Source of the DNA: a virus
DNA length: 30,826 nt
IMG/VR virus record: IMGVR_UViG_3300044622_000658
Coordinates: 1-30,826 of that record
Strand: one strand, 5' to 3'
Made by a program: the position numbers and the translations under genes. Numbering within the stretch: the stretch's first letter is position 1; each line of letters starts with the position of its first letter. Below the pieces are notes generated by a model. It made no database searches and was not told where the DNA came from. It saw only the letters and a program-made list of their open reading frames with translations. Of this stretch, positions 5,512 through 29,172 are shown piece after piece.

Positions 5512-5867
5512 CGAGTCAACTCCTGTTGCCACGCCGCCATGAGAACGCGATTGACACTGCGTTCGAGCCACCATTTCACGATGATCTGCACGATCGCATT
5601 GACGATCGCACCGAGCATCAGCGTCCAGAAGAACCCGTACTCCTGCGGTTCGCGGCCCGACTGCCACTGGTGGGCTCGCTTGACCTTCCCGGCGATCGAC
5701 ATCGCCACGATGTCGCGGCCCTCTTCGCTCTCGGCGTGGCCCAGGTACTCGCCCTCCCAGTTCTCGATCGCCAGCGTCGTCAGGTCATGGACGGTCTCGC
5801 GGCCCACCATGTATTTCCGCATGGGGAGGCGCTTCCAGACATGCTCATAGAGTTCGTCGCGGGTCAT
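5508..5867 (-). CDS. Small membrane protein with C-terminal transmembrane segment (119 aa)
   Basis: ATG at 5867 overlaps the stop of the upstream lipoprotein gene (ATGA), which fixes the start; seven extra residues upstream in frame are not needed. Residues 1-75 are polar with many charged residues (MTRDELYEHVW, HAESEEGRDIVAMSIAGK). Residues 78-100 form one hydrophobic helix (FFWTLMLGAIVNAIVQIIV), followed by a basic tail. I recognise no family. Its place between the lipoprotein and the holin-like protein suggests an inner-membrane part of the lysis cassette, such as an antiholin or pinholin. Confidence 0.6.
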   Translation of the reverse strand: MTRDELYEHVWKRLPMRKYMVGRETVHDLTTLAIENWEGEYLGHAESEEGRDIVAMSIAGKVKRAHQWQSGREPQEYGFFWTLMLGAIVNAIVQIIVKWWLERSVNRVLMAAWQQELTR

Positions 5868-6112
5868 CGCTTGCCGGTGCCTCCGCATTCAGGGCACTGC
5901 ATCACGATCCTCCCGTCGCCGATCTTCCCGGTGCCGTTGCAGTTCGAGCACCGCTCATCGACCGGCTTCGGTGCCGGGCCGATCTCGCTCCGCATCTTGA
6001 CCACCATGCGTGCGGCCTCGGCGGCGAGGTCGGCGGATACGGTCACGTCATCCGGCGGCAGCGATGCCACGCAGCCGATCGCGACGACGACGAATACGAT
6101 GAGCCAACGCAT
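5864..6112 (-). CDS. Putative lipoprotein with DnaJ-type CxxCxGxG zinc knuckle (82 aa)
   Basis: ATG at 6112 overlaps the stop of the protease gene by one base (TGATG). Residues 1-14 are a signal sequence ending in AIGC, a plausible lipobox with the lipidated cysteine at 14. A short helical stretch (28-45) is followed by two CxxCxGxG motifs, CSNCNGTG (55-62) and CPECGGTG (73-80), spaced as in one DnaJ zinc-binding unit. The expected picture is a membrane-tethered protein with a folded Zn knuckle outside the cytoplasm. In spanin systems the small lipoprotein is the outer-membrane partner, and whether this one acts so is inference from position. Confidence 0.66.
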   Translation of the reverse strand: MRWLIVFVVVAIGCVASLPPDDVTVSADLAAEAARMVVKMRSEIGPAPKPVDERCSNCNGTGKIGDGRIVMQCPECGGTGKR

Positions 6113-7050
6113 CAGAGAATCCCCCGCAGCCACCCGGTCGGCATCACAGTCGGCTCGAAGCCGGTGAACCCGGCGAGCGCGTAGGAGTCGCCGCCACGGC
6201 ACATATCGTCGATGACCTCGGCATCTACCCATCCGCTCGTGCGCTGGAACGCCTCGGGCAGTCGCTCGTCCACCGTCCCCGAGTAGCAGTTGCCCCACGA
6301 GTTGGGCACGAGCAGGGCAGGGCGATCGACACGCAGAGCGCAAGCCATCATGCAGTGCGCCCACGACCCGGCTGGCGTGAGCCAGCCACCACCGAGCGAG
6401 CCGCGATCCGCGAATCGCATCGAGAACCCACGCATCGAGCACAGTGCGACGGGGTATCCGTTGCTGATCGCTTTCGCACAGTCGTCGAACGACCGCACAA
6501 GCGTCACCTCGGTGCAGCGTCGCTTCTTCGCGTAGGGTTCCAGCACGTCGGGCAGACCGTCGCGGCCCCACGCCTTCTCCTCGGTGCCGGTGAACTGACG
6601 ATCGAACCGCACGTCGCCGTACTGCTGACCGTAGTGCAGCACGCCCCAATCTCGGACAGCCTTGGCGGCGTGAAATCCCGTCGAGCCGTCGCCGCCCGGC
6701 GCGGACGATCGCCCGCGAGCCTCGACGCGAGACAGCCCGTAGACGCTCGCCTCGATCGTGCGACCGCCGAATACCTCTGGCTCGCGACGCACGACGACAT
6801 CGCACGCGGCGAGTACGTCCACGCACATCGCGAAGCCCCAGCCCACGCACGAGCCGATAGGCTGCGAGCCACGCTTCCACGCAGGCATGCAGGCAAGCAG
6901 GTGTTGTCCGAGGAACACGTCCTCGTTCGCCGCCTGGAGGTTCGGCCCGGCCTCGGCGAGCGTCGGGCGCGGCAGTGACGACACGAACGCCGCCGCCCCA
7001 TCCGGGTCGGGTGTGTAGCCGAAGAGCGGCACGAATGCGTCGGCGGTCAT
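6112..7050 (-). CDS. Papain-like (C1-type) cysteine protease
   Basis: The product has 312 aa. The start ATG at 7050 lies 2 bp past the upstream stop. The catalytic triad of the papain fold is readable in order: QPIGSCVGWGFA with C68 (compare QGxCGSCWAF), GSWAHCM with H232, and PNSWGNCYSG with N250 (compare NSWG). W252 and G253 are the usual neighbours of the Asn. No signal peptide is visible, so the enzyme would act in the cytoplasm, in the virion or after holin-mediated release. No muramidase or amidase is present nearby. This protease, flanked by membrane proteins and a lipoprotein, is a candidate endolysin; alternatives are a virion-maturation protease or a virion-associated lysin. Confidence 0.8.
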   Translation of the reverse strand: MTADAFVPLFGYTPDPDGAAAFVSSLPRPTLAEAGPNLQAANEDVFLGQHLLACMPAWKRGSQPIGSCVGWGFAMCVDVLAACDVVVRREPEVFGGRTIEASVYGLSRVEARGRSSAPGGDGSTGFHAAKAVRDWGVLHYGQQYGDVRFDRQFTGTEEKAWGRDGLPDVLEPYAKKRRCTEVTLVRSFDDCAKAISNGYPVALCSMRGFSMRFADRGSLGGGWLTPAGSWAHCMMACALRVDRPALLVPNSWGNCYSGTVDERLPEAFQRTSGWVDAEVIDDMCRGGDSYALAGFTGFEPTVMPTGWLRGIL

Positions 7051-7052
7051 GC

Positions 7053-7673
7053 TCACCCCCCGGCTGGCATGGCCGCCCAAGCGACCGCTCGGCAGAACGC
7101 CACGTACCGCTCGCGGACGCTGGCATCCACTGGCACGATCGCGTCACCGACCGCCGACGCGTACGCCGCCTCGACGGCAGAGCGAAGCGGTTCGTTGCCC
7201 GGCTTGTGGCCGCCGATACGTCGCCACGCGATGTCGAGGCTGAGCGCCGTGTACATCCGCAGGGCACGGGTATCGGAGAACACGACCTCGGTCGTCGCCA
7301 CGTCACCTGCCGCTACGATCGCGACCTTCGACCACGTCGCCGCCCAGAGCATCCGATCCGAGATGCTCATGCCCCTGAGTTGCTTTGCGATCGGCTCGAC
7401 GGTCTCACGCATGGCGGCACTCGGCTCCTCGACGGCGAGCCCCGGAGCGACCACGCCACCGCCAACGGCGGGCAGCGTCGGCATCGGCACCTTGCCCCAC
7501 GCGGCGGCGATGAGCAGGCTCGCAGCGATCAGACGCCCGATGATCCCGCTGTGCTGCCGGATGGCTTCGGCGGCTGCGGCGGCCGCAGCGCGGATTTGCC
7601 CTGCGTACGGCGCAGCGATGAGAGCAACCGCAGCAGCGACGGCTGTGATGCGTAGGAGTGCATCGGTCGTCAT
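7053..7673 (-). CDS. Hypothetical protein with two N-terminal membrane helices (206 aa)
   Basis: Hydrophobic helices occupy about residues 5-24 and 44-60, separated by an alanine-rich helical linker (AAAAAAAEAI). The remaining ~145 residues are soluble, mostly helical and without recognised motifs. It opens the run of membrane proteins around the papain-like protease. TGAGATG joins it to the preceding gene. A holin or a membrane anchor for the protease are possible roles; neither can be shown from the sequence. Confidence 0.65.
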   Translation of the reverse strand: MTTDALLRITAVAAAVALIAAPYAGQIRAAAAAAAEAIRQHSGIIGRLIAASLLIAAAWGKVPMPTLPAVGGGVVAPGLAVEEPSAAMRETVEPIAKQLRGMSISDRMLWAATWSKVAIVAAGDVATTEVVFSDTRALRMYTALSLDIAWRRIGGHKPGNEPLRSAVEAAYASAVGDAIVPVDASVRERYVAFCRAVAWAAMPAGG

Positions 7674-8420: not shown

Positions 8421-9255
8421 CGCGTGGTGTCCAGTAGGAGACGCACCGGCTCGACGGGTTGAGATACAACCGCCCCGGCATCGTGCGATGAGCACACACG
8501 TGCTCGCAGTCCTCGCCGCTGTACCGCATGGCGAGGTAGGCGTCCCTCCGGTAGAGCGCCAGCTGTCCGAAGGCGCTGTTAAATCGCAGAGGCAGCGAGC
8601 CGACAGGCGGGTGCCAGTGGTGGAACCACGTCTGGTCGCGACGCCGCCAGAGATTCCACCGTGCCGCGAATGCGTCGTAGTGGATCGCGTACCCGTTGTG
8701 CTCCGCCCACGAATAGCTCGCCATGCACGACGCCTCGCGAGCAGCCTCGATATGTGCCACGCTCGTCGCCACGCCGTCAACGCTCCAACCTCCCCAAGCA
8801 TCTGAGTCGAACACGATGACGTAGTCGCACGGCTCGCCGTGCCGCACCCACCACTGGCACTGCGTGCGGTACTCGGCGAGGGCAATCGTCCGCTCGGTGG
8901 CGATCGTGTGCGAGAGGTGCGGCCGGTGGTTGACGTTGAGCGACACCTGCCGCTGCGTGCCGTCGGTCCACGCCGCGAGCACGTCCTTCGTCTCGTCTTC
9001 CGAGTCGTTCTCGAAGATGAACGCCGACCACGATCGGAACATCGCACCCGTCTCCTCGACGAGCGAGAGCGTCTGCGGAAGCCATGGCATCGAGTTGCGA
9101 GCGATGGCAACCAGGGCCACCGTGCGCTCAGCGGCGATCTCGCGACCGATGCGAACGTCGGCTGCGTATGCCGCAGCGAACTCCTCGTCGGGCGGGAGCA
9201 GCACGTCGGGGCGGTGAGCCTCGATGTCGGCGGCGGTGATGGTGTAGGTCGTCAT
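8395..9255 (-). CDS. Glycosyltransferase, GT-A fold, CMT1/GT69-like
   Basis: The product has 286 aa. After about 45 helical residues the core begins at TVALVAIARNS. FENDSEDET (81-89) and VIVFDSDAWGGW (146-157) with DxD at 150-152 form the donor and metal site. Later HHWHPP, FNSAFGQLALYRRDAYL and GEDCEHV form the acceptor end. This combination resembles the cryptococcal mannosyltransferase 1 family, an assignment from motif memory. It overlaps the next gene by 4 bp in a polycistronic glycosylation block. Confidence 0.78.
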   Translation of the reverse strand: MTTYTITAADIEAHRPDVLLPPDEEFAAAYAADVRIGREIAAERTVALVAIARNSMPWLPQTLSLVEETGAMFRSWSAFIFENDSEDETKDVLAAWTDGTQRQVSLNVNHRPHLSHTIATERTIALAEYRTQCQWWVRHGEPCDYVIVFDSDAWGGWSVDGVATSVAHIEAAREASCMASYSWAEHNGYAIHYDAFAARWNLWRRRDQTWFHHWHPPVGSLPLRFNSAFGQLALYRRDAYLAMRYSGEDCEHVCAHRTMPGRLYLNPSSRCVSYWTPRDARQHGDN

Positions 9256-10025
9256 ATCCCCACGTCATCCGCTGTCGCCCCGATGGCGAACGGAAAGAAC
9301 TCTTGAAGATTCACCGGTCCGCTCGTCGCCTGGAGCCGATGCCACGCATCGACCAGCCCCGTGTAGCCGTAGTAGTCCTGCTTCATGGCGATCTGCTGCT
9401 CGGTCGTGTACGCGTAGTGATCGAACACGAGCCCCGCCGCTTCGGTGTTTTCGATGCTCACGCATCGGTCAAATCCAGTGACGATCGGCGGCTCGTGTCG
9501 GAGGAACCGCATGCCCGGCCCCCATCGCCACGCTCGCAGCCATTCGAGGTCACCGCGAGCCCAGCCCGTAGTCGATGTCAGGATCTTCGAGGGTCCGACC
9601 CAGTAGCGGCACGCGAACCGTGCGGCTGTCGCCACGGGCTGCTGAAGCATCAGCCAGTAGATCCGCTCCAGTTGCCACGCCTGCCAGAGCTCGTCGCTGT
9701 CCACCTGCATGACGACGCCGCCTTCGACGCCTTCGAGAGCGCGGGCGATCATCGAAATCTTGCCGTCCCACGGTGAGTGACGCCACGAGCAGGTCACGTT
9801 CGGCGTGTTGTTCACCGCACGCACGTACTCGTGCGTCCCGTCCACGCTGACGAAGTCCCGGTGCCACTTGTCGGGCATCGTCTGGCACCACGCCGTGCAG
9901 TGCGTCGGTGCCGCGACGCCCTCGACGATCCGCCACTGCCACGGGATCGTGAGCTGGCGAAACGTCGCGAGGTGCTGCTCGATGTACGGCTCGCCGTTGA
10001 GCACGAGCGTGAAGAGCGTCAGCAT
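9252..10025 (-). CDS. Glycosyltransferase, GT2-like
   Basis: The product has 257 aa. ATG at 10025 overlaps the end of the preceding glycosyltransferase gene; longer in-frame readings are shadow sequence of that gene. The opening LTLFTLVLNGEPYIEQHLAT is the classic first beta strand and NGE loop of family 2 enzymes. The DxD-type motif is MQVDSDELW (106-114). RAWRWGPGMRF and FDHYAYTTEQQIAMKQDYYGY near the C-terminus resemble proteins that act on sugar acceptors. Substrate unknown. Confidence 0.78.
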   Translation of the reverse strand: MLTLFTLVLNGEPYIEQHLATFRQLTIPWQWRIVEGVAAPTHCTAWCQTMPDKWHRDFVSVDGTHEYVRAVNNTPNVTCSWRHSPWDGKISMIARALEGVEGGVVMQVDSDELWQAWQLERIYWLMLQQPVATAARFACRYWVGPSKILTSTTGWARGDLEWLRAWRWGPGMRFLRHEPPIVTGFDRCVSIENTEAAGLVFDHYAYTTEQQIAMKQDYYGYTGLVDAWHRLQATSGPVNLQEFFPFAIGATADDVGI

Positions 10026-10624: not shown

Positions 10625-11194
10625 TCACTCGCCCCGCTTCACGGCGATGACTTGCCACTCACGGTAGAGCACCTCGACGCACTCGCCGTAGAGCGAGAGG
10701 AACGCATCGATCGCGGGCTCCGGCGTCGGTAGGTGCTGCCGGTGCGGGTGCGGATCACGCCACTCGTAGTCGTCCCACACGATGACAGCGCCGACCTTGA
10801 GCAGCCGCCACGCGAGCACCGTGTCTTCGAGCACCGTGCGGCCCTCGTGCCCGCCGTCGATGTAGATGCCATCGAACATCCGATGCTCGGCGAGGGCGCG
10901 GGCGAGAAAGACGTGCGAGCGTCCGCGAAACTTTTCGGCACGCCCGGCGAGGTTGGCGTCGAACCGCGCCTCGGGATTTTCTGCCGAGAACCCGTCAAAC
11001 GGCCCACCCCAGGTATCGACGCACGTGATCGTGTCGCCGTGCTTCAGTGCTTCATCGAGCATCCAGCACGCAGAGCGGCCCTCGTGCGATCCGATCTCCA
11101 GCCAGCGGCACGGGTGCGGCAGGCGAGGCAGCACGTGCTCACGCCAGGCGTTCGTTCGCATCGAGAACCAGTCGTGCGTGAACTGGTAGCTCAT
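10625..11194 (-). CDS. Class I SAM-dependent methyltransferase
   Basis: The product has 189 aa. Motif I is WLEIGSHEGRSACWML (31-46), the SAM-binding glycine loop. TCVDTWGG (57-64) is the acidic motif II region. IYIDGGHEGRTVLEDT (110-125) and GAVIVWDDY (135-143) are the later strands, in the pattern of the Methyltransf_24 family often found beside sugar-transfer genes. ATG at 11194 overlaps the previous stop (ATGA). Position between glycosyltransferases points to methylation of a sugar or glycan precursor (inference). Confidence 0.82.
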   Translation of the reverse strand: MSYQFTHDWFSMRTNAWREHVLPRLPHPCRWLEIGSHEGRSACWMLDEALKHGDTITCVDTWGGPFDGFSAENPEARFDANLAGRAEKFRGRSHVFLARALAEHRMFDGIYIDGGHEGRTVLEDTVLAWRLLKVGAVIVWDDYEWRDPHPHRQHLPTPEPAIDAFLSLYGECVEVLYREWQVIAVKRGE

Positions 11195-11787
11195 GTGACC
11201 ACCCGGCCCAGGTGCTCGCGGATCAGCTCGCATCGGATGTCGGGCGGATTGCCGCACGGGTGATAGACGAGGTCGCCGTTCTGCCAGTGGTTCGTCTGTC
11301 CGAGATGCACCGAATTGAACGTCCGCTTCGGCGCGATCGTCATGCGATCCGCCAGCCGCTCGCGGTGCTTCATCAGCCACTGCTGGACGTTCCACTCCAT
11401 GCCTCGCCACTCGTCCTCTGCGGCGACGATGTCGGCGAGCAGCGACAGCGTGCCTTGAGTTGCACGCCACACGATCGACCCGCCGTTCACCAGGGCGTGA
11501 GCGCCGATACCCTCCTCGCAGATCGTCATGTGCGGCCCGAGCTCGGGCACGTCCTCGATCCGGGTCGTCAGGTTCGTGATCACGCAGTCGGCGTCGAGCG
11601 TCCACACGAGGTCATGGTGTTCGAGCAGTTGCCCGATCCGCCAGAAGTTCGCCAGCGCCTGTGAGTACGGCTCGCATCGCCACACCATCGTGTAGTCGTG
11701 CCTCACGCAGTACGCGAGACGGTTCGCAACGGTGAGCTCTGCCCACGGCGTGCCGACACCCGCGCTCGTGAAGATCGCGACGTTCAT
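11191..11787 (-). CDS. Glycosyltransferase, GMA12/MNN10 (GT34)-like
   Basis: The product has 198 aa from ATG at 11787, which overlaps the RusA stop. VWTLDADCVITN (61-72) contains the DxD (65-67). NGGSIVWR and EDEWRGMEWNVQQW follow, then KRTFNSVHLG and GDLVYHPCG, in the order seen in GT34 galactosyl/mannosyltransferases. It is the first gene of the glycosylation block in transcription order, translated directly after the resolvase. Confidence 0.76.
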   Translation of the reverse strand: MNVAIFTSAGVGTPWAELTVANRLAYCVRHDYTMVWRCEPYSQALANFWRIGQLLEHHDLVWTLDADCVITNLTTRIEDVPELGPHMTICEEGIGAHALVNGGSIVWRATQGTLSLLADIVAAEDEWRGMEWNVQQWLMKHRERLADRMTIAPKRTFNSVHLGQTNHWQNGDLVYHPCGNPPDIRCELIREHLGRVVT

Positions 11788-12182
11788 GTGATCCGCACCG
11801 TCGTGCGACCCTCGCTGCCCCACGATTTCTCGACGACGAGACGAGCCACGTTCGTATCATCGCCCATCACGTCCTGCAGCGCGTCGAGGACCGCCTTGCC
11901 CAGGTTGTCCACGTCGGGACGCGGCAGCGCCGGTGCGGTCGGCTTCACGCCTGACTTCGTGAGGTGCGACTTGGGTCGTGCGAACACGGCGTCAATGACG
12001 ACGCTGACTGGTTTCGCCTGCTCGCGGAGCCCGGCGACGCTTGCCGCTAATGCGATCGCCTGTCGGTAGGCGTGAACTGGATGGCTCTTCGGTACGTACG
12101 CGCGAGCGAACCCGCCCTGCGTTGACACTCGCGGGCGCGGCTGCGGCACCGGATCGCCGGGGATGGAGAGCGTGATGGTCAC
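11784..12182 (-). CDS. rusA: RusA-family Holliday-junction resolvase
   Basis: I chose GTG at 12182 because it forms GTGA with the upstream stop and gives 132 aa, close to the 120 aa of E. coli RusA. PGDPVPQPRPR near the N-terminus is the family signature. RPDVDNLGKAVLDAL (88-102) and MGDDTNV (106-112) supply the catalytic acids D90, D92 and D108/D109, with the conserved K96. The enzyme cuts four-way junctions symmetrically so that branched phage DNA can be resolved before packaging. It closes the recombination block. Confidence 0.9.
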   Translation of the reverse strand: MTITLSIPGDPVPQPRPRVSTQGGFARAYVPKSHPVHAYRQAIALAASVAGLREQAKPVSVVIDAVFARPKSHLTKSGVKPTAPALPRPDVDNLGKAVLDALQDVMGDDTNVARLVVEKSWGSEGRTTVRIT

Positions 12183-12400
12183 AGCAAGTCGAGCCCGTGC
12201 TCCGCACACTGACTCCGCAGCCACTCGCGGAGCTCCTGGTACGCCACCTCGACATCGTGGCCGAGCTCGCCGCCCTTGATCTCGGTCGCGAGGTGGTCGT
12301 CGAGCAGGATGACGATCGACTTCGCCCGCGAGCCCTCGACGCAGTCGCGGAACTCGCCCTCGTCCTCGGGCAATCGGAATCTCAGCGTGGCGGTTGGCAT
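12179..12400 (-). CDS. Small conserved phage-type protein beginning MPTATLRFRLPEDEGEF (73 aa)
   Basis: ATG at 12400 is preferred over one five codons upstream because the protein then begins with the pattern ATLRF-LPEDEGEF, which I know from small phage proteins of unknown function (mKATLTFNLPEE type). It has a charged helical middle and C-terminus. It overlaps the protease gene by 19 bp and the resolvase by 4 bp. No catalytic motif was seen. Its place beside RusA suggests a helper in recombination or early replication. Confidence 0.66.
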   Translation of the reverse strand: MPTATLRFRLPEDEGEFRDCVEGSRAKSIVILLDDHLATEIKGGELGHDVEVAYQELREWLRSQCAEHGLDLL

Positions 12401-13173
12401 CCCGGCATCGTGCATGGCTCGTCAAGTTCGCCGACCACGCTCCGAATCCAATCGAGGTAGAGCACCACGCGGGTGTGACCCGACTCTTCGCCGAGGACGT
12501 ATCGCGTTTTTCCACCAACGCGGGCGACGTATGAGTTCACGCCGACAAGCCTCGTGCTGCCGTCGATCGCCGTTGCCCATAGCGGCCCGCCCGAGTCGCC
12601 CGGCGCGATGCACGCCGGGAGCGGGCCAGCGTCAGGCGTCCTGCGGATCGGGCAGACGTACACGCCGTGCTCGATCGACCCGAGGAAGCACGTCCCGGCT
12701 CGCAGCCGCTGGTCGCCGCCCGTGAGCCCGCGTGTGAGCGTGCCTGTCATTCCGTACCCAGCGGCGGCGGCGACGCTCCCGAGCCGCTCGGTGCCGTCAG
12801 CGAGCCGTGGATACACGTCGGCGTGCCGATGCTGTCCGAGCCGCACCAGGGCGATGTCGTGCCACCCGTGAACGCCGGTCCATTCGGGATGCCGCACGAC
12901 GCGGTCGCACGCGAGTCGCTCGCCGCCGAGGACGACCGTGACAGCCGTCATCTCGTGCGGGACGTGGGCCGCCGTCAACACCCAGTGCGGCGAGATGAGC
13001 GTGCCAGAGCCCGCGAGCGGAACGCCTTCGGCGTTGTTGCCGACGACCCGCACGACGTAGCCCGAGAACGTCGCACCGTAGTCGAGGTAGCGGCCGTCGC
13101 CCTTCGACTCGTCAATCGTGGCGGCAGACGCCGCGAGGGCCGACACGGCGATGAGAGTCGCCAGGAGTCGCAT
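12382..13173 (-). CDS. Secreted trypsin-like serine protease (S1 family)
   Basis: The product has 263 aa. Residues 1-17 (MRLLATLIAVSALAASA) are a clear signal peptide. The catalytic triad is complete: WVLTAAH with H70, HDIALVRL with D106, and PGDSGGPLW with S194. Four cysteines in the mature part (C89, C162, C174, C188) can form disulfides. The ends (C254, C259) are cysteine-rich as well. A short N-terminal propeptide (18-38) precedes the first strand. An exported S1 protease is unusual in a phage and may be a lysogenic-conversion gene or help breach a proteinaceous envelope. It follows a 205-bp gap and so may have its own promoter. Confidence 0.88.
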   Translation of the reverse strand: MRLLATLIAVSALAASAATIDESKGDGRYLDYGATFSGYVVRVVGNNAEGVPLAGSGTLISPHWVLTAAHVPHEMTAVTVVLGGERLACDRVVRHPEWTGVHGWHDIALVRLGQHRHADVYPRLADGTERLGSVAAAAGYGMTGTLTRGLTGGDQRLRAGTCFLGSIEHGVYVCPIRRTPDAGPLPACIAPGDSGGPLWATAIDGSTRLVGVNSYVARVGGKTRYVLGEESGHTRVVLYLDWIRSVVGELDEPCTMPGCQPPR

Positions 13174-13378
13174 GCCCGATCATGGCACGCGAGGCTAGTG
13201 GCCTTGCAGTTAGCGGAGGCGTGATACACGGACAGTATAAACACTGGTTCTCAACACACCGTTTCGCGCCCGTGTAGTGTCCTGTTTCGCAGTTCTCGAA
13301 TTGCGAACAGACGACCCCGGCGGGTTCGGCCGCGCGGTTTATCCTTCCGCCGCCTGCCCGCCGGGATCGCTGTTCTGC
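13174..13378. other. 205-bp non-coding gap with two inverted repeats and a possible promoter
   Basis: No convincing gene is present. From the upstream side it holds a 9-bp GC hairpin (13316-13324 with 13357-13365), which may terminate the small membrane gene although no T-run follows. Next comes an inverted repeat at 13282-13310 (CTGTTTCGCA / TGCGAACAG, one bulge). Last is an AT-rich patch around 13231-13240 that reads TATACT on the minus strand, a possible -10 box for the protease gene with no good -35. Confidence 0.4.
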
Positions 13379-13522
13379 TCACCTCGTCATCCACATCAGC
13401 CCCCAGTTCGCCGCGCCGTAGCTCGCCCACACGACGAATCCGGCGGGGGAGCCCTTCCACCACTGCTCGATCGCGACAGCCCAGTAAAGCAGAGAGACGA
13501 ACAGCAGAAGCGGTGCACTCAT
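13379..13522 (-). CDS. Small two-helix membrane protein (47 aa)
   Basis: ATG at 13522 overlaps the previous stop (ATGA) and has GAGG close upstream. Residues 3-20 (APLLLFVSLLYWAVAIEQ) and 26-44 (PAGFVVWASYGAANWGLMW) are hydrophobic with a short charged loop (WWKGS). The size and topology fit a small holin or a superinfection-exclusion protein. It stands at the end of the recombination block, before a hairpin. Confidence 0.62.
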   Translation of the reverse strand: MSAPLLLFVSLLYWAVAIEQWWKGSPAGFVVWASYGAANWGLMWMTR

Positions 13523-13764
13523 AAATCCTCCACGAGCGAAGCGGCGCACGGGTCCGGCACTGTCGGCGGTGTCCAGCCGCGCACGAGCCTGCCAGACAAC
13601 CGCAGTTTTTTGATTCTCGATTGCACCCACGGTGCGCTTTCCAAAAACATGACTGACATGACTTCATCCAGCGGCGTCGGAGCCGGTGGCTCGCGATCAA
13701 CAGGAATCTTGAAGCCTAGGACAGAGCGGCCATCGCCTCCTCGCGACACGTAACGACCTTGCAT
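13519..13764 (-). CDS. Hypothetical basic 81-aa protein
   Basis: Start ATG at 13764 is backed by a strong ribosome-binding site (GGGAGG, six bases away), although it lies 49 bp inside the VRR-NUC gene. The product has a Pro-rich linker (VDREPPAPTPLDEV) and a helical, basic part (SRIKKLRLSGRLVRGW). I recognise no family. Confidence 0.58.
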   Translation of the reverse strand: MQGRYVSRGGDGRSVLGFKIPVDREPPAPTPLDEVMSVMFLESAPWVQSRIKKLRLSGRLVRGWTPPTVPDPCAASLVEDL

Positions 13765-13991
13765 GGTGCGCCTCCCTGCGTCTCGATCTCCCTCATGCGT
13801 GCGACCTGCAGCGGCGTGGCTTTCTTGCCCGGCTGCTTCACTTCCAGGAACACCGCCTTGCCGCGTCGAAGACAGAGCAGGTCGGGGACGCCAGCCAACT
13901 GATGCGGACCGCCGTGGATCTTCATGACCCACCACCCTGCTTGTTTGGCTTCCCGAACTATCGCGGCGACGATGTTGGATTCCCGTGGCAT
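13716..13991 (-). CDS. VRR-NUC domain nuclease (91 aa)
   Basis: The protein is a minimal PD-(D/E)xK nuclease of the VRR-NUC family: E4 in the first helix, GVPDLLCLRRGKAVFLEVK (34-52) with D37, E50 and K52, and TPLQ with Q62. Stand-alone phage VRR-NUC enzymes act on branched or Holliday-junction-like DNA. ATG at 13991 has AAGGGG eight bases upstream and overlaps the Gp88-like gene by 34 bp. With RusA this gives the phage two structure-selective nucleases. Confidence 0.86.
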   Translation of the reverse strand: MPRESNIVAAIVREAKQAGWWVMKIHGGPHQLAGVPDLLCLRRGKAVFLEVKQPGKKATPLQVARMREIETQGGAPCKVVTCREEAMAALS

Positions 13992-14704
13992 TCCGTTGCC
14001 CCTTGAACAGCGTCGCCGTTGAAGCAGCGACGGCATGATTCACATACCCGAACAATCGACTCGCTCAGGTTGAGCGGGCAGTCTCTCGCAATCGGCTGCG
14101 ATCCGTCAAGGTCATAGCCATGCCGAAACACGACAGGAGCAACGTCGTCGCTTGGAGCCTCTCCTCGATCGCACTGGTAAGACCAGAACCACTTCAAGCC
14201 GCGAGGAGCCACCACGCGAAACTCTTCCAGCCTTGCCCACGATGCCCGATCTACCGAAAAGTGAACGTAGACGTTGTCGCGAGGCTGAATCGTTGAAGCG
14301 ATCTCAGGCTTGCGCGTGACGACCCACTGAGGCACACCTGGAAGCATCAAGGCTACGGCGTCGATGCAGGCTGGCGTCTCTGCTACGAGGTCGCCGCCGC
14401 CGCACCAACGGATGAACGTGAGCCGCAGCCGCGTTGACCAGTGCGCGATGCGACCGGCGAGCGACTGCGGATCGGCACGCAATGAGTTCAAGAGCCGATG
14501 CTGCTTTGCCAAGCTCGCCGTCCAAGTCGCGGGGCCACGGGCGAAGTAGCACGTATCGGAACACACGAGCGTTGGCGTACACGTCCCGATGATCGGAAAG
14601 TTCAGCGAATGCCCGGTGACCTTGTTGGTCGAGAATGGATTCTCCGACGGGCCGAGAGGCTCATCGTGCCACTGCGGCTTTCGTGCCAGCGTAGCGACGC
14701 TCAT
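13958..14704 (-). CDS. Gp88 / DUF5131-like cysteine-rich phage protein
   Basis: The product has 248 aa. Features are STNKVTGHS (25-33), the cluster C42-x5-C48-x3-C52, RWCGGGDLVAE (99-109) and VVTRKPE (128-134). A C-terminal set C209, C221, C224, C227 follows. The pattern is that of the mycobacteriophage Gp88-like family, whose cysteine layout is reminiscent of Fe-S or radical-SAM-like proteins; its biochemical role is unknown. A perfect palindrome (14712-14730) ends 8 bp before the start. A GC hairpin upstream (14735-14769) makes this a likely new transcription unit. Confidence 0.72.
   Translation of the reverse strand: MSVATLARKPQWHDEPLGPSENPFSTNKVTGHSLNFPIIGTCTPTLVCSDTCYFARGPATWTASLAKQHRLLNSLRADPQSLAGRIAHWSTRLRLTFIRWCGGGDLVAETPACIDAVALMLPGVPQWVVTRKPEIASTIQPRDNVYVHFSVDRASWARLEEFRVVAPRGLKWFWSYQCDRGEAPSDDVAPVVFRHGYDLDGSQPIARDCPLNLSESIVRVCESCRRCFNGDAVQGATECHGNPTSSPR
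14045..14057 (-). promoter_or_regulatory. GATTGTTCGGGTA motif (copy inside the Gp88-like gene)
   Basis: This is an exact copy of the motif found at 19947-19960, here within codons of the Gp88-like gene and 54 bases before the VRR-NUC start. Because it is coding (Ser-Ile-Val-Arg-Val), chance cannot be excluded. Confidence 0.3.
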
Positions 14705-28274: not shown

Positions 28275-28538
28275 TCAAGGCTCCCGACCACAGAGCTTCC
28301 GTATGGCGCGTGATTGCTTTCTGACTTGCTCCATGAGCATGCCAGTCTCAATCTTGCCGAGGTCGTCTTTTATTCCTAGCAGCGAAAGAGCAGCCTTCAT
28401 CATCCGCCCCCTACGCCTCAGTTGCCCTTGAGCGTTAGCACGCGACGCGACGCCTTCAGGCATCTCCATTGACTCTCTGACGAGAGCCAAGAGTTCCGGC
28501 ACGCTCAATTCTTTTCGTCGCCTATTTCGCGATGGCAT
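28275..28538 (-). CDS. Hypothetical basic 87-aa protein
   Basis: ATG at 28538 with GGAGG six bases upstream; the frame upstream is shadow of the next gene. Somewhat AT-richer than its neighbours. Helical and basic (SRNRRRKELSVPELLALVR, QLRRRGRMMKAALSLLGI, RKQSRAIRKLCGREP). A nucleic-acid-binding role is possible; no family recognised. Confidence 0.58.
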   Translation of the reverse strand: MPSRNRRRKELSVPELLALVRESMEMPEGVASRANAQGQLRRRGRMMKAALSLLGIKDDLGKIETGMLMEQVRKQSRAIRKLCGREP

Positions 28539-29172
28539 TGCGGGCCTCCGCTGGGAGCCTGCACCCAGGCTGACGCAGGTGACCGTCGTTGAGATGCGGC
28601 CACAACTCGTGCGAGTGGATTGCCGACAGCAGGTTCCACGCCGCGTGGCCGAGGTGCTGCTCGCTGCGGTCACCGCTCAGGAACGCGTAGACGTGGGCGA
28701 TCGCGTGGTTGAGCAGATCGTGAACGGGCATCCCGTTCTCCCAGTTCCAATCGCCGTACTTCGCGGCACCCTCGGCGCATGCACGAGCAACCTCGCGAAG
28801 CCCGATCGGCGACACGAGGTCATACCGAAACTCTTCGACAGCATCCGAGCGAACCGCTCCAGTGCCGAACTTCTCCGTGACGCCGGGCCGGGGCTCCCTC
28901 GCGACCCGCGCGGGCCTTGACTCCTCGACGAGCCGGGCGAAACCCTTCACGGCCTCGACCCGCGTGGCGTATTCGGGCGGCGTCCACTCGGAGTACGGGT
29001 CGTGCGACGACTCATCTGCACTTGCGGCCCCGTCGCTCAGCGCCCTCGTCGCCGCCTCCAGTGCAGGCTGGCACCCCTCTAGGCTTGCCGCCATCGGTGA
29101 GCGTCCAGCCAGGCGTGACTCGACGGCGTTGCGGAGGGCGGCGTTGGCGGATTCGAGGGTGGCTTCGGTCAC
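28522..29172 (-). CDS. dATP/dGTP diphosphohydrolase, DUF5664/MazZ-type (216 aa)
   Basis: Residues 102-195 follow the family well: FGTGAVRSD (102-110), YDLVSPIGLREVARACAEG, AAKYGDWNWENGMPV (136-150), LLNHAIAHVYAFLSGD, EQHLGHAAWNLLSAIH (171-186). Helical acid/His residues in the last two segments would bind the metal. Members hydrolyse dATP/dGTP to monophosphates; the cyanophage S-2L protein does so in the 2-aminoadenine pathway. Residues 1-95 are an alanine/glutamate-rich extension not needed for the fold. No purZ or datZ is in the window, so nucleotide-pool control is the safer reading. Confidence 0.76.
   Translation of the reverse strand: MTEATLESANAALRNAVESRLAGRSPMAASLEGCQPALEAATRALSDGAASADESSHDPYSEWTPPEYATRVEAVKGFARLVEESRPARVAREPRPGVTEKFGTGAVRSDAVEEFRYDLVSPIGLREVARACAEGAAKYGDWNWENGMPVHDLLNHAIAHVYAFLSGDRSEQHLGHAAWNLLSAIHSHELWPHLNDGHLRQPGCRLPAEARNAIAK

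Follow-up and report, generated by a model that had tools for sequence, protein, structure and literature searches.

The stretch of DNA analysed here, referred to as the window, is a 30,826-nucleotide IMG/VR virus record without an attached host genome. On its minus strand, at 12382..13173, lies a gene with an ATG start that encodes a 263-amino-acid serine protease of the S1 family, predicted to be exported. The protein matched the Pfam Trypsin family (PF00089) at 5.9e-14 (52.8 bits; cut-off 20.6), its top PDB sequence match was pancreatic elastase (phmmer, 3.9e-10), and its sole PHROG match was to an unnamed family, phrog_11383 (2.1e-5). The codons of the catalytic residues lie on the same strand at 12964-12966 (H70), 12856-12858 (D106) and 12592-12594 (S194). 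Identity as an HtrA/DegP protease was rejected, given a score of 27.8 bits (cut-off 416.2), a length of 263 residues and the lack of a PDZ hit.

The 3' end of the protease gene is overlapped by a conserved open reading frame of 78 codons (12179..12415, minus strand), which shared 86-100% identity with its counterparts in the other 14 carriers and had neither Pfam nor PHROG matches. It is followed by a RusA-like Holliday junction resolvase gene (11784..12178, minus strand, start not fixed; PF05866, 2.7e-21; phrog_140, 4.7e-23). Upstream of the protease lies a small hydrophobic open reading frame of approximately 47 codons (about 13379..13522, minus strand), which was recognised by tblastn synteny, had no Pfam match and preceded the protease gene at a variable distance in most carriers. 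Beyond it is a VRR-NUC-like endonuclease gene (13716..14036, minus strand; phrog_93 'endonuclease', 4.3e-22), the product of which scored 19.1 against the VRR_NUC Pfam family, under the cut-off of 23.8. The preliminary description had set the protease between RusA and VRR-NUC genes; both are nearby, but its direct neighbours are the 78-codon frame and the small hydrophobic frame. Elsewhere in the window, genes with Methyltransf_24 (2.4e-20) and Glyco_transf_34 (3.6e-7) matches were seen downstream of RusA at 10625-11823, and a dATP/dGTP diphosphohydrolase N-terminal domain (7.7e-18), possibly part of a nucleotide-pool enzyme, was encoded near an exonuclease gene at 28522-29172 on the minus strand.

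A complete and intact copy of the protease gene, 94-100% identical to that of the window, was found in 14 other IMG/VR contigs, all of which had the order protease, 78-codon frame, RusA. Two of the 14 copies were identical to the window gene; the remaining 12 differed from it with pN/pS values of 0.084-0.186, which excludes a chance open reading frame. The gene is under strong purifying selection and is real and maintained.

The catalytic triad H70-D106-S194, reported in the preliminary description as complete, was invariant in all 52 aligned homologues, as was the GDSGG motif (G192-G196); Asp193 was also conserved in this alignment. An AF2 model built from the 52 sequences predicted a double beta-barrel chymotrypsin fold (pLDDT 89.7, pTM 0.86) and was confident except for residues 1-15 (AF2 confidence <50) and the last five residues; an earlier model from 10 near-identical rows (pLDDT 39.3) was set aside. 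The VIA comparison gave Z scores of 25.4 (granzyme H) and 25.2 (elastase), the alignments covering 199-210 residues. The fold therefore agreed with the earlier term trypsin-like; the predicted specificity did not. The residues lining the pocket, numbered by phmmer alignment to elastase and extended by eye, were Cys188 (position 189), Ile189 (190), Val216 (216) and Ser231 (226). In the 42 viral rows, position 189 was C, L, M, G or A and never Asp, position 190 was nearly always I, position 216 was V, T or L, and position 226 was S, T or C. Since Asp189 was missing and V, T or L occupied position 216 in every viral row, an elastase-like rather than a trypsin-like specificity is predicted from these sequences. 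Trypsin proper (S1A, Arg/Lys specificity) was rejected because the equivalent of Asp189 in the window protease is Cys188.

The several cysteines to which attention had been drawn are present, six in number, but make a weak argument. C162 varied even in close relatives, and in the 42 viral rows C89 was found in 4, C254/C259 in 12 and C174 in 40, so that only C174 is general. The presence of C174 is a difference from the PEP-CTERM-tailed cellular S1 proteases discussed below.

Export, also claimed previously, was supported by a rule-based check. The N terminus of the window protein, MRLLATLIAVSALAASA|A, was compatible with a signal peptide, and the check placed a predicted Sec signal peptide at residues 1-17 (13123..13173, minus strand), with cleavage at ASA|A. 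Under the same type of check, 36 of 40 viral rows, the window included, passed the -3/-1 rule with a mature end of the form [GA]T[ITV][DE]. Three of the four rows outside this signature had Ser before GTID; the fourth (L036), which has no GTID-type N terminus, was the one true exception. In S1 proteases, zymogen cleavage yields a mature N terminus at residue 16 that pairs with Asp194; the phage protein has no IVGG motif there, although its Asp193 is conserved. In the VIA rows, residue 18 of the model was aligned with chain residue 16 or with the residue that opens the mature chain. Cleavage at the predicted signal-peptidase site would leave a protein whose first residue is equivalent to chymotrypsin residue 16, which suggests that removal of the signal peptide creates the activating N terminus and that export may itself activate the protease; for this geometry the model is weak evidence, residues 1-15 having a confidence below 50.

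Directly upstream of the protease, approximately 80-100 bp were kept in most carriers, and the flanks further upstream differed. In the window this conserved non-coding element, a candidate promoter or operator, occupies 13174..13250 on the minus strand. Its 20-nucleotide core occurred once in the window (expected, 0.03), and a 19-nucleotide form was present in 22 of 217 loci, every time just upstream of the protease. The element was missing from one locus (L004), two others (L010 and L013) had no exact match to the core, and one contig (L002) was cut too near the gene to be compared. Scans for sigma-70 promoters and for terminators, which are not informative for a GC-rich phage, each returned zero hits. 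The element is, on this distribution, private to the protease.

The genes upstream of the protease were less constant. Synteny in GC-rich loci was assessed by tblastn because the greedy gene caller was unreliable there, and the replication genes differed among carriers, with a UvrD/Prim-Pol module in some and other DNA elsewhere. Among 37 loci related through the UvrD helicase, seven (one of which is truncated by the contig end) carried the protease; the protease is accessory and dispensable. This patchy presence and the private upstream element, a candidate promoter, may point to a gene of the moron type. In 17 of 22 hand-picked protease-less loci (20 contigs), a small exported cysteine-containing protein was encoded a few kb at most beyond the VRR gene. 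Thirteen of 49 carrier loci encoded such a protein close to the protease as well, and the window group lacked it. The site has the look of a slot that takes exported proteins, export being scored here by a heuristic of our own. The slot proteins (for example L062:14459-14773, L039:12119-12448 and L050:13723-14001) form a family of approximately 90-130 residues with the core motifs SAQxxA, EGIGxxST, CCFxG and RRGWFAVIRY and no Pfam match. In L217, which comes from a close relative of the window phage, GDP-mannose dehydratase-type proteins and a Tet/JBP oxygenase were encoded at 5559-7456 and 8609-9526, a hint that glycans and DNA bases may be modified.

Exported S1 proteases had been described beforehand as rare in phages. 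For uncultured phages this view was not borne out by a scan of IMG/VR, run with an alignment that also contained the distant phage copies L036 and L025: 525 stretches were matched, of which 432 encoded a relative of the protease. Yet tblastn searches of 50,697 GenBank phage records with the window protein and two of its relatives (L109 and L096) gave no matches. Against GTDB, the window protein alone confirmed none of 74 stretches as relatives, and the alignment recovered at least 98; the best cellular relatives among the matches listed were from Planctomycetota, at 33-35% identity.

Phylogeny, proposed together with structure prediction in the preliminary description, was carried out on 67 rows drawn from the best 80 of the 432 IMG/VR relatives, reduced to representatives at 92% identity, and from the cellular sequences. 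A fragment (L093) and a sequence identical to that of the window (L002) were dropped beforehand. Forty viral rows and one row filed as bacterial (L133) formed a single clade with support of 100/99, in a tree sampled by similarity to the query, so that viral S1 proteins beyond this sample might group differently. The bacterial row comes from a contig filed under a Flavobacteriales metagenome-assembled genome (NZWA01000021.1), which shared 17 gene families in collinear order with the GC-poor phage contigs; by this gene content it is a contig of phage DNA that was placed in a bacterial bin, and the clade is effectively viral. Within the clade, a GC-rich branch of temperate phages that included the window (18 rows, support 100/97) was separated from a second, almost entirely GC-poor branch (23 rows, 98/94). 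The rows nearest to the viral clade were cellular S1 proteases of Planctomycetota and Verrucomicrobiota, mostly PEP-CTERM-tailed. The best explanation of these sequence relationships is that the window gene belongs to a family of secreted S1 proteases specific to viruses, which either derives from the PEP-CTERM S1 proteases or is their sister group.

Contigs of the GC-poor branch reached 244 kb. In 18 of 22 GC-poor viral representatives the S1 gene adjoined a subtilase gene, which lay downstream in 16 and upstream in two. The subtilase genes are of an intracellular type (L115:8744-9670, L108:8744-9670 and L124:7320-8240); the L108 copy matched Pfam at 3.7e-58 and begins without a signal peptide, and the L115 copy was similar to intracellular subtilisins among others. 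Subtilase was not found in the window. The genes that precede S1 in this branch include those for an HNH protein, a volactin-type actin, a RuvB-like ATPase and RIIB. The actin of this block (L119:6557-7555 and homologues; PF25216, 1.9e-63) was found in only two GenBank phage records, both uncultured phages of 485-595 kb. The pairing of S1 with an adjacent intracellular-type subtilase suggests a module for proteolysis in two compartments in this branch of large phages.

The host was approached through the replication genes. At E < 1e-30 the window helicase matched one of 392 planctomycete genomes, with 37% identity. The contig concerned, of 7.77 Mb, encoded homologues of the helicase, g19153, Prim-Pol, UvrD and VRR in the order of the window, at 32-46% identity, within a prophage-like module of the planctomycete chromosome collinear with the window replication genes (L213/L214; G310:C1:1373001-1412999). 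No S1 match was present within 40 kb in that region. From this collinear module, a single prophage-like region in one of the 392 genomes, it was inferred that the region is a related prophage and that the host of the window phage is probably a planctomycete.

The reading we favour, with a confidence that is about even, is that the gene encodes an accessory exported protease of the virus-specific S1 family, matured by signal peptidase and acting on envelope or surface proteins of the host. The host, probably a planctomycete, would export the precursor; signal peptidase would make its cut at the equivalent of chymotrypsin residue 16, and active enzyme would arise only outside the cytoplasm. The soluble mature enzyme would then cleave proteins of the host envelope or surface at small aliphatic residues. 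The phage would most probably profit from modification of the host envelope, either for superinfection blocking or for host takeover, with help in cell breakdown a close second. Envelope modification is preferred over lysis because relatives do without the protease and because the gene lies with recombination genes. A point against the favoured reading is that in the window group the gene stands beside the recombination gene RusA and not in a surface-modification operon.

Among the alternatives, a helper in envelope lysis ranks first, although we consider it fairly unlikely. A protease made late in infection would cut the planctomycete envelope, partly replacing or assisting an endolysin. Planctomycete walls are protein-rich, the protease is predicted to be exported and is free of a PEP-CTERM anchor, and Amidase_2, Phage_lysozyme and Peptidase_M15_3 were each found in none of the eight carrier contigs searched. 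However, this lysin negative covers three families, the GH108 control was silent and the contigs may be fragments; ten hand-chosen open reading frames of L215/L217, of 36 listed, likewise gave no lysin against Pfam. Moreover, the relatives among the 37 helicase-related contigs that do not carry the protease achieve release without it, and the gene lies among recombination and replication genes rather than in a recognised lysis cassette.

Next, and unlikely in our estimation, is a virus-specific weapon activated by export, which would be silent in the cytoplasm, be switched on by the signal peptidase of the host and work together with the cytoplasmic subtilase in very large phages. If this were true, the very large phages would digest host protein in two compartments at once.

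Slightly less credit is given to a lysogenic conversion gene, which would aid the host while the prophage is silent, through nutrition on extracellular proteins, a surface change or competition. The window encodes an integrase (phrog_1), the distribution of the protease is accessory, its upstream element is private, as in moron genes, and it is akin to secreted proteases of cells. Against this, family members also occur on large contigs that may not come from integrating phages, with RIIB, RuvB-like, HNH and IMPDH-type genes and the subtilase as neighbours, and no antibacterial or transport partner was found; action against competitors, one of the earlier suggestions, gained no support.

A role in virion maturation or structure is very improbable: phages use serine proteases in capsid maturation, but the predicted signal peptide would export this one, and a distinct prohead protease (Peptidase_S78, 6.6e-36) is encoded by a close carrier. 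Least probable is a recent accidental pick-up of a host gene with no function in the phage, a scenario to which the cellular relatives in Planctomycetota lend some colour and for which absence from related phages and identity to a host gene had been named as the signs; instead, 14 close contigs carry the gene, viral relatives number in the hundreds, cellular identity reaches only the 33-35% given above among the matches listed, and recent capture was ruled out by the tree and the selection test.

The favoured reading, an accessory enzyme acting on the host envelope, would make this family an example of a little-known way for phages to act on the envelope, through exported enzymes of their own. 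The family, little noticed so far, is widespread among uncultured phages and extends to very large ones; in the part of the literature that was available to us no description of a virus-specific S1 protease family was found, and one may nonetheless be in print. For phages of barely cultured bacteria it provides a defined enzyme with which superinfection exclusion and release could be tested in planctomycetes, and it offers a simple, testable idea of activation by signal peptidase.

Compared with known systems, the phage protease resembles in structure the elastase/granzyme-chymase group of S1 proteases (PDB 1b0e, 1hax, 3tk9 and 3rp2; VIA Z 25.2-25.4 over approximately 200 residues, 2.0-2.9 A), and with pancreatic elastase it has in common the Val/Thr216 pocket. 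It differs from this group in its low identity (20-26%), in having no IVGG N terminus and, by alignment, in lacking the positions of the C42-C58 and C191-C220 disulfides. Trypsin-like proteases of insect nudiviruses and giant viruses (BFVD) likewise place an S1 fold in a virus, but they are mostly from viruses of eukaryotes and are only ~11-23% identical to the phage protease, so a separate acquisition is likely. The subtilase of the GC-poor branch has relatives in phage intracellular subtilisins, such as those of Bacillus phages including vB_BsuM-Goe3 (~40% identity). The S8 fold sets these subtilases apart from the S1 protease, as does the missing signal peptide in the L108 copy of the GC-poor branch; subtilase relatives are represented in GenBank phages, whereas S1 relatives are not by the tblastn searches described. 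The PEP-CTERM S1 proteases of Planctomycetota, Verrucomicrobiota and others (L131, L132, L134-L140 and L142-L146) have the same fold and triad and share with the phage proteins a pattern after the signal peptide, roughly [AG][TVI]IRxDxxDxxYxxLG. In contrast to these cellular relatives, the phage proteins have no C-terminal PEP-CTERM tail; the window protein ends in CTMPGCQPPR, with no PEP motif, transmembrane segment or basic tail. Position 21 was Asp or Glu in 42 of 42 viral rows and Arg in eight of nine cellular rows, the ninth having a gap. The S1 fold and family are already known, and the apparently new part is a virus-specific branch, predicted to be coupled to export and elastase-like, that spans temperate and very large phages.
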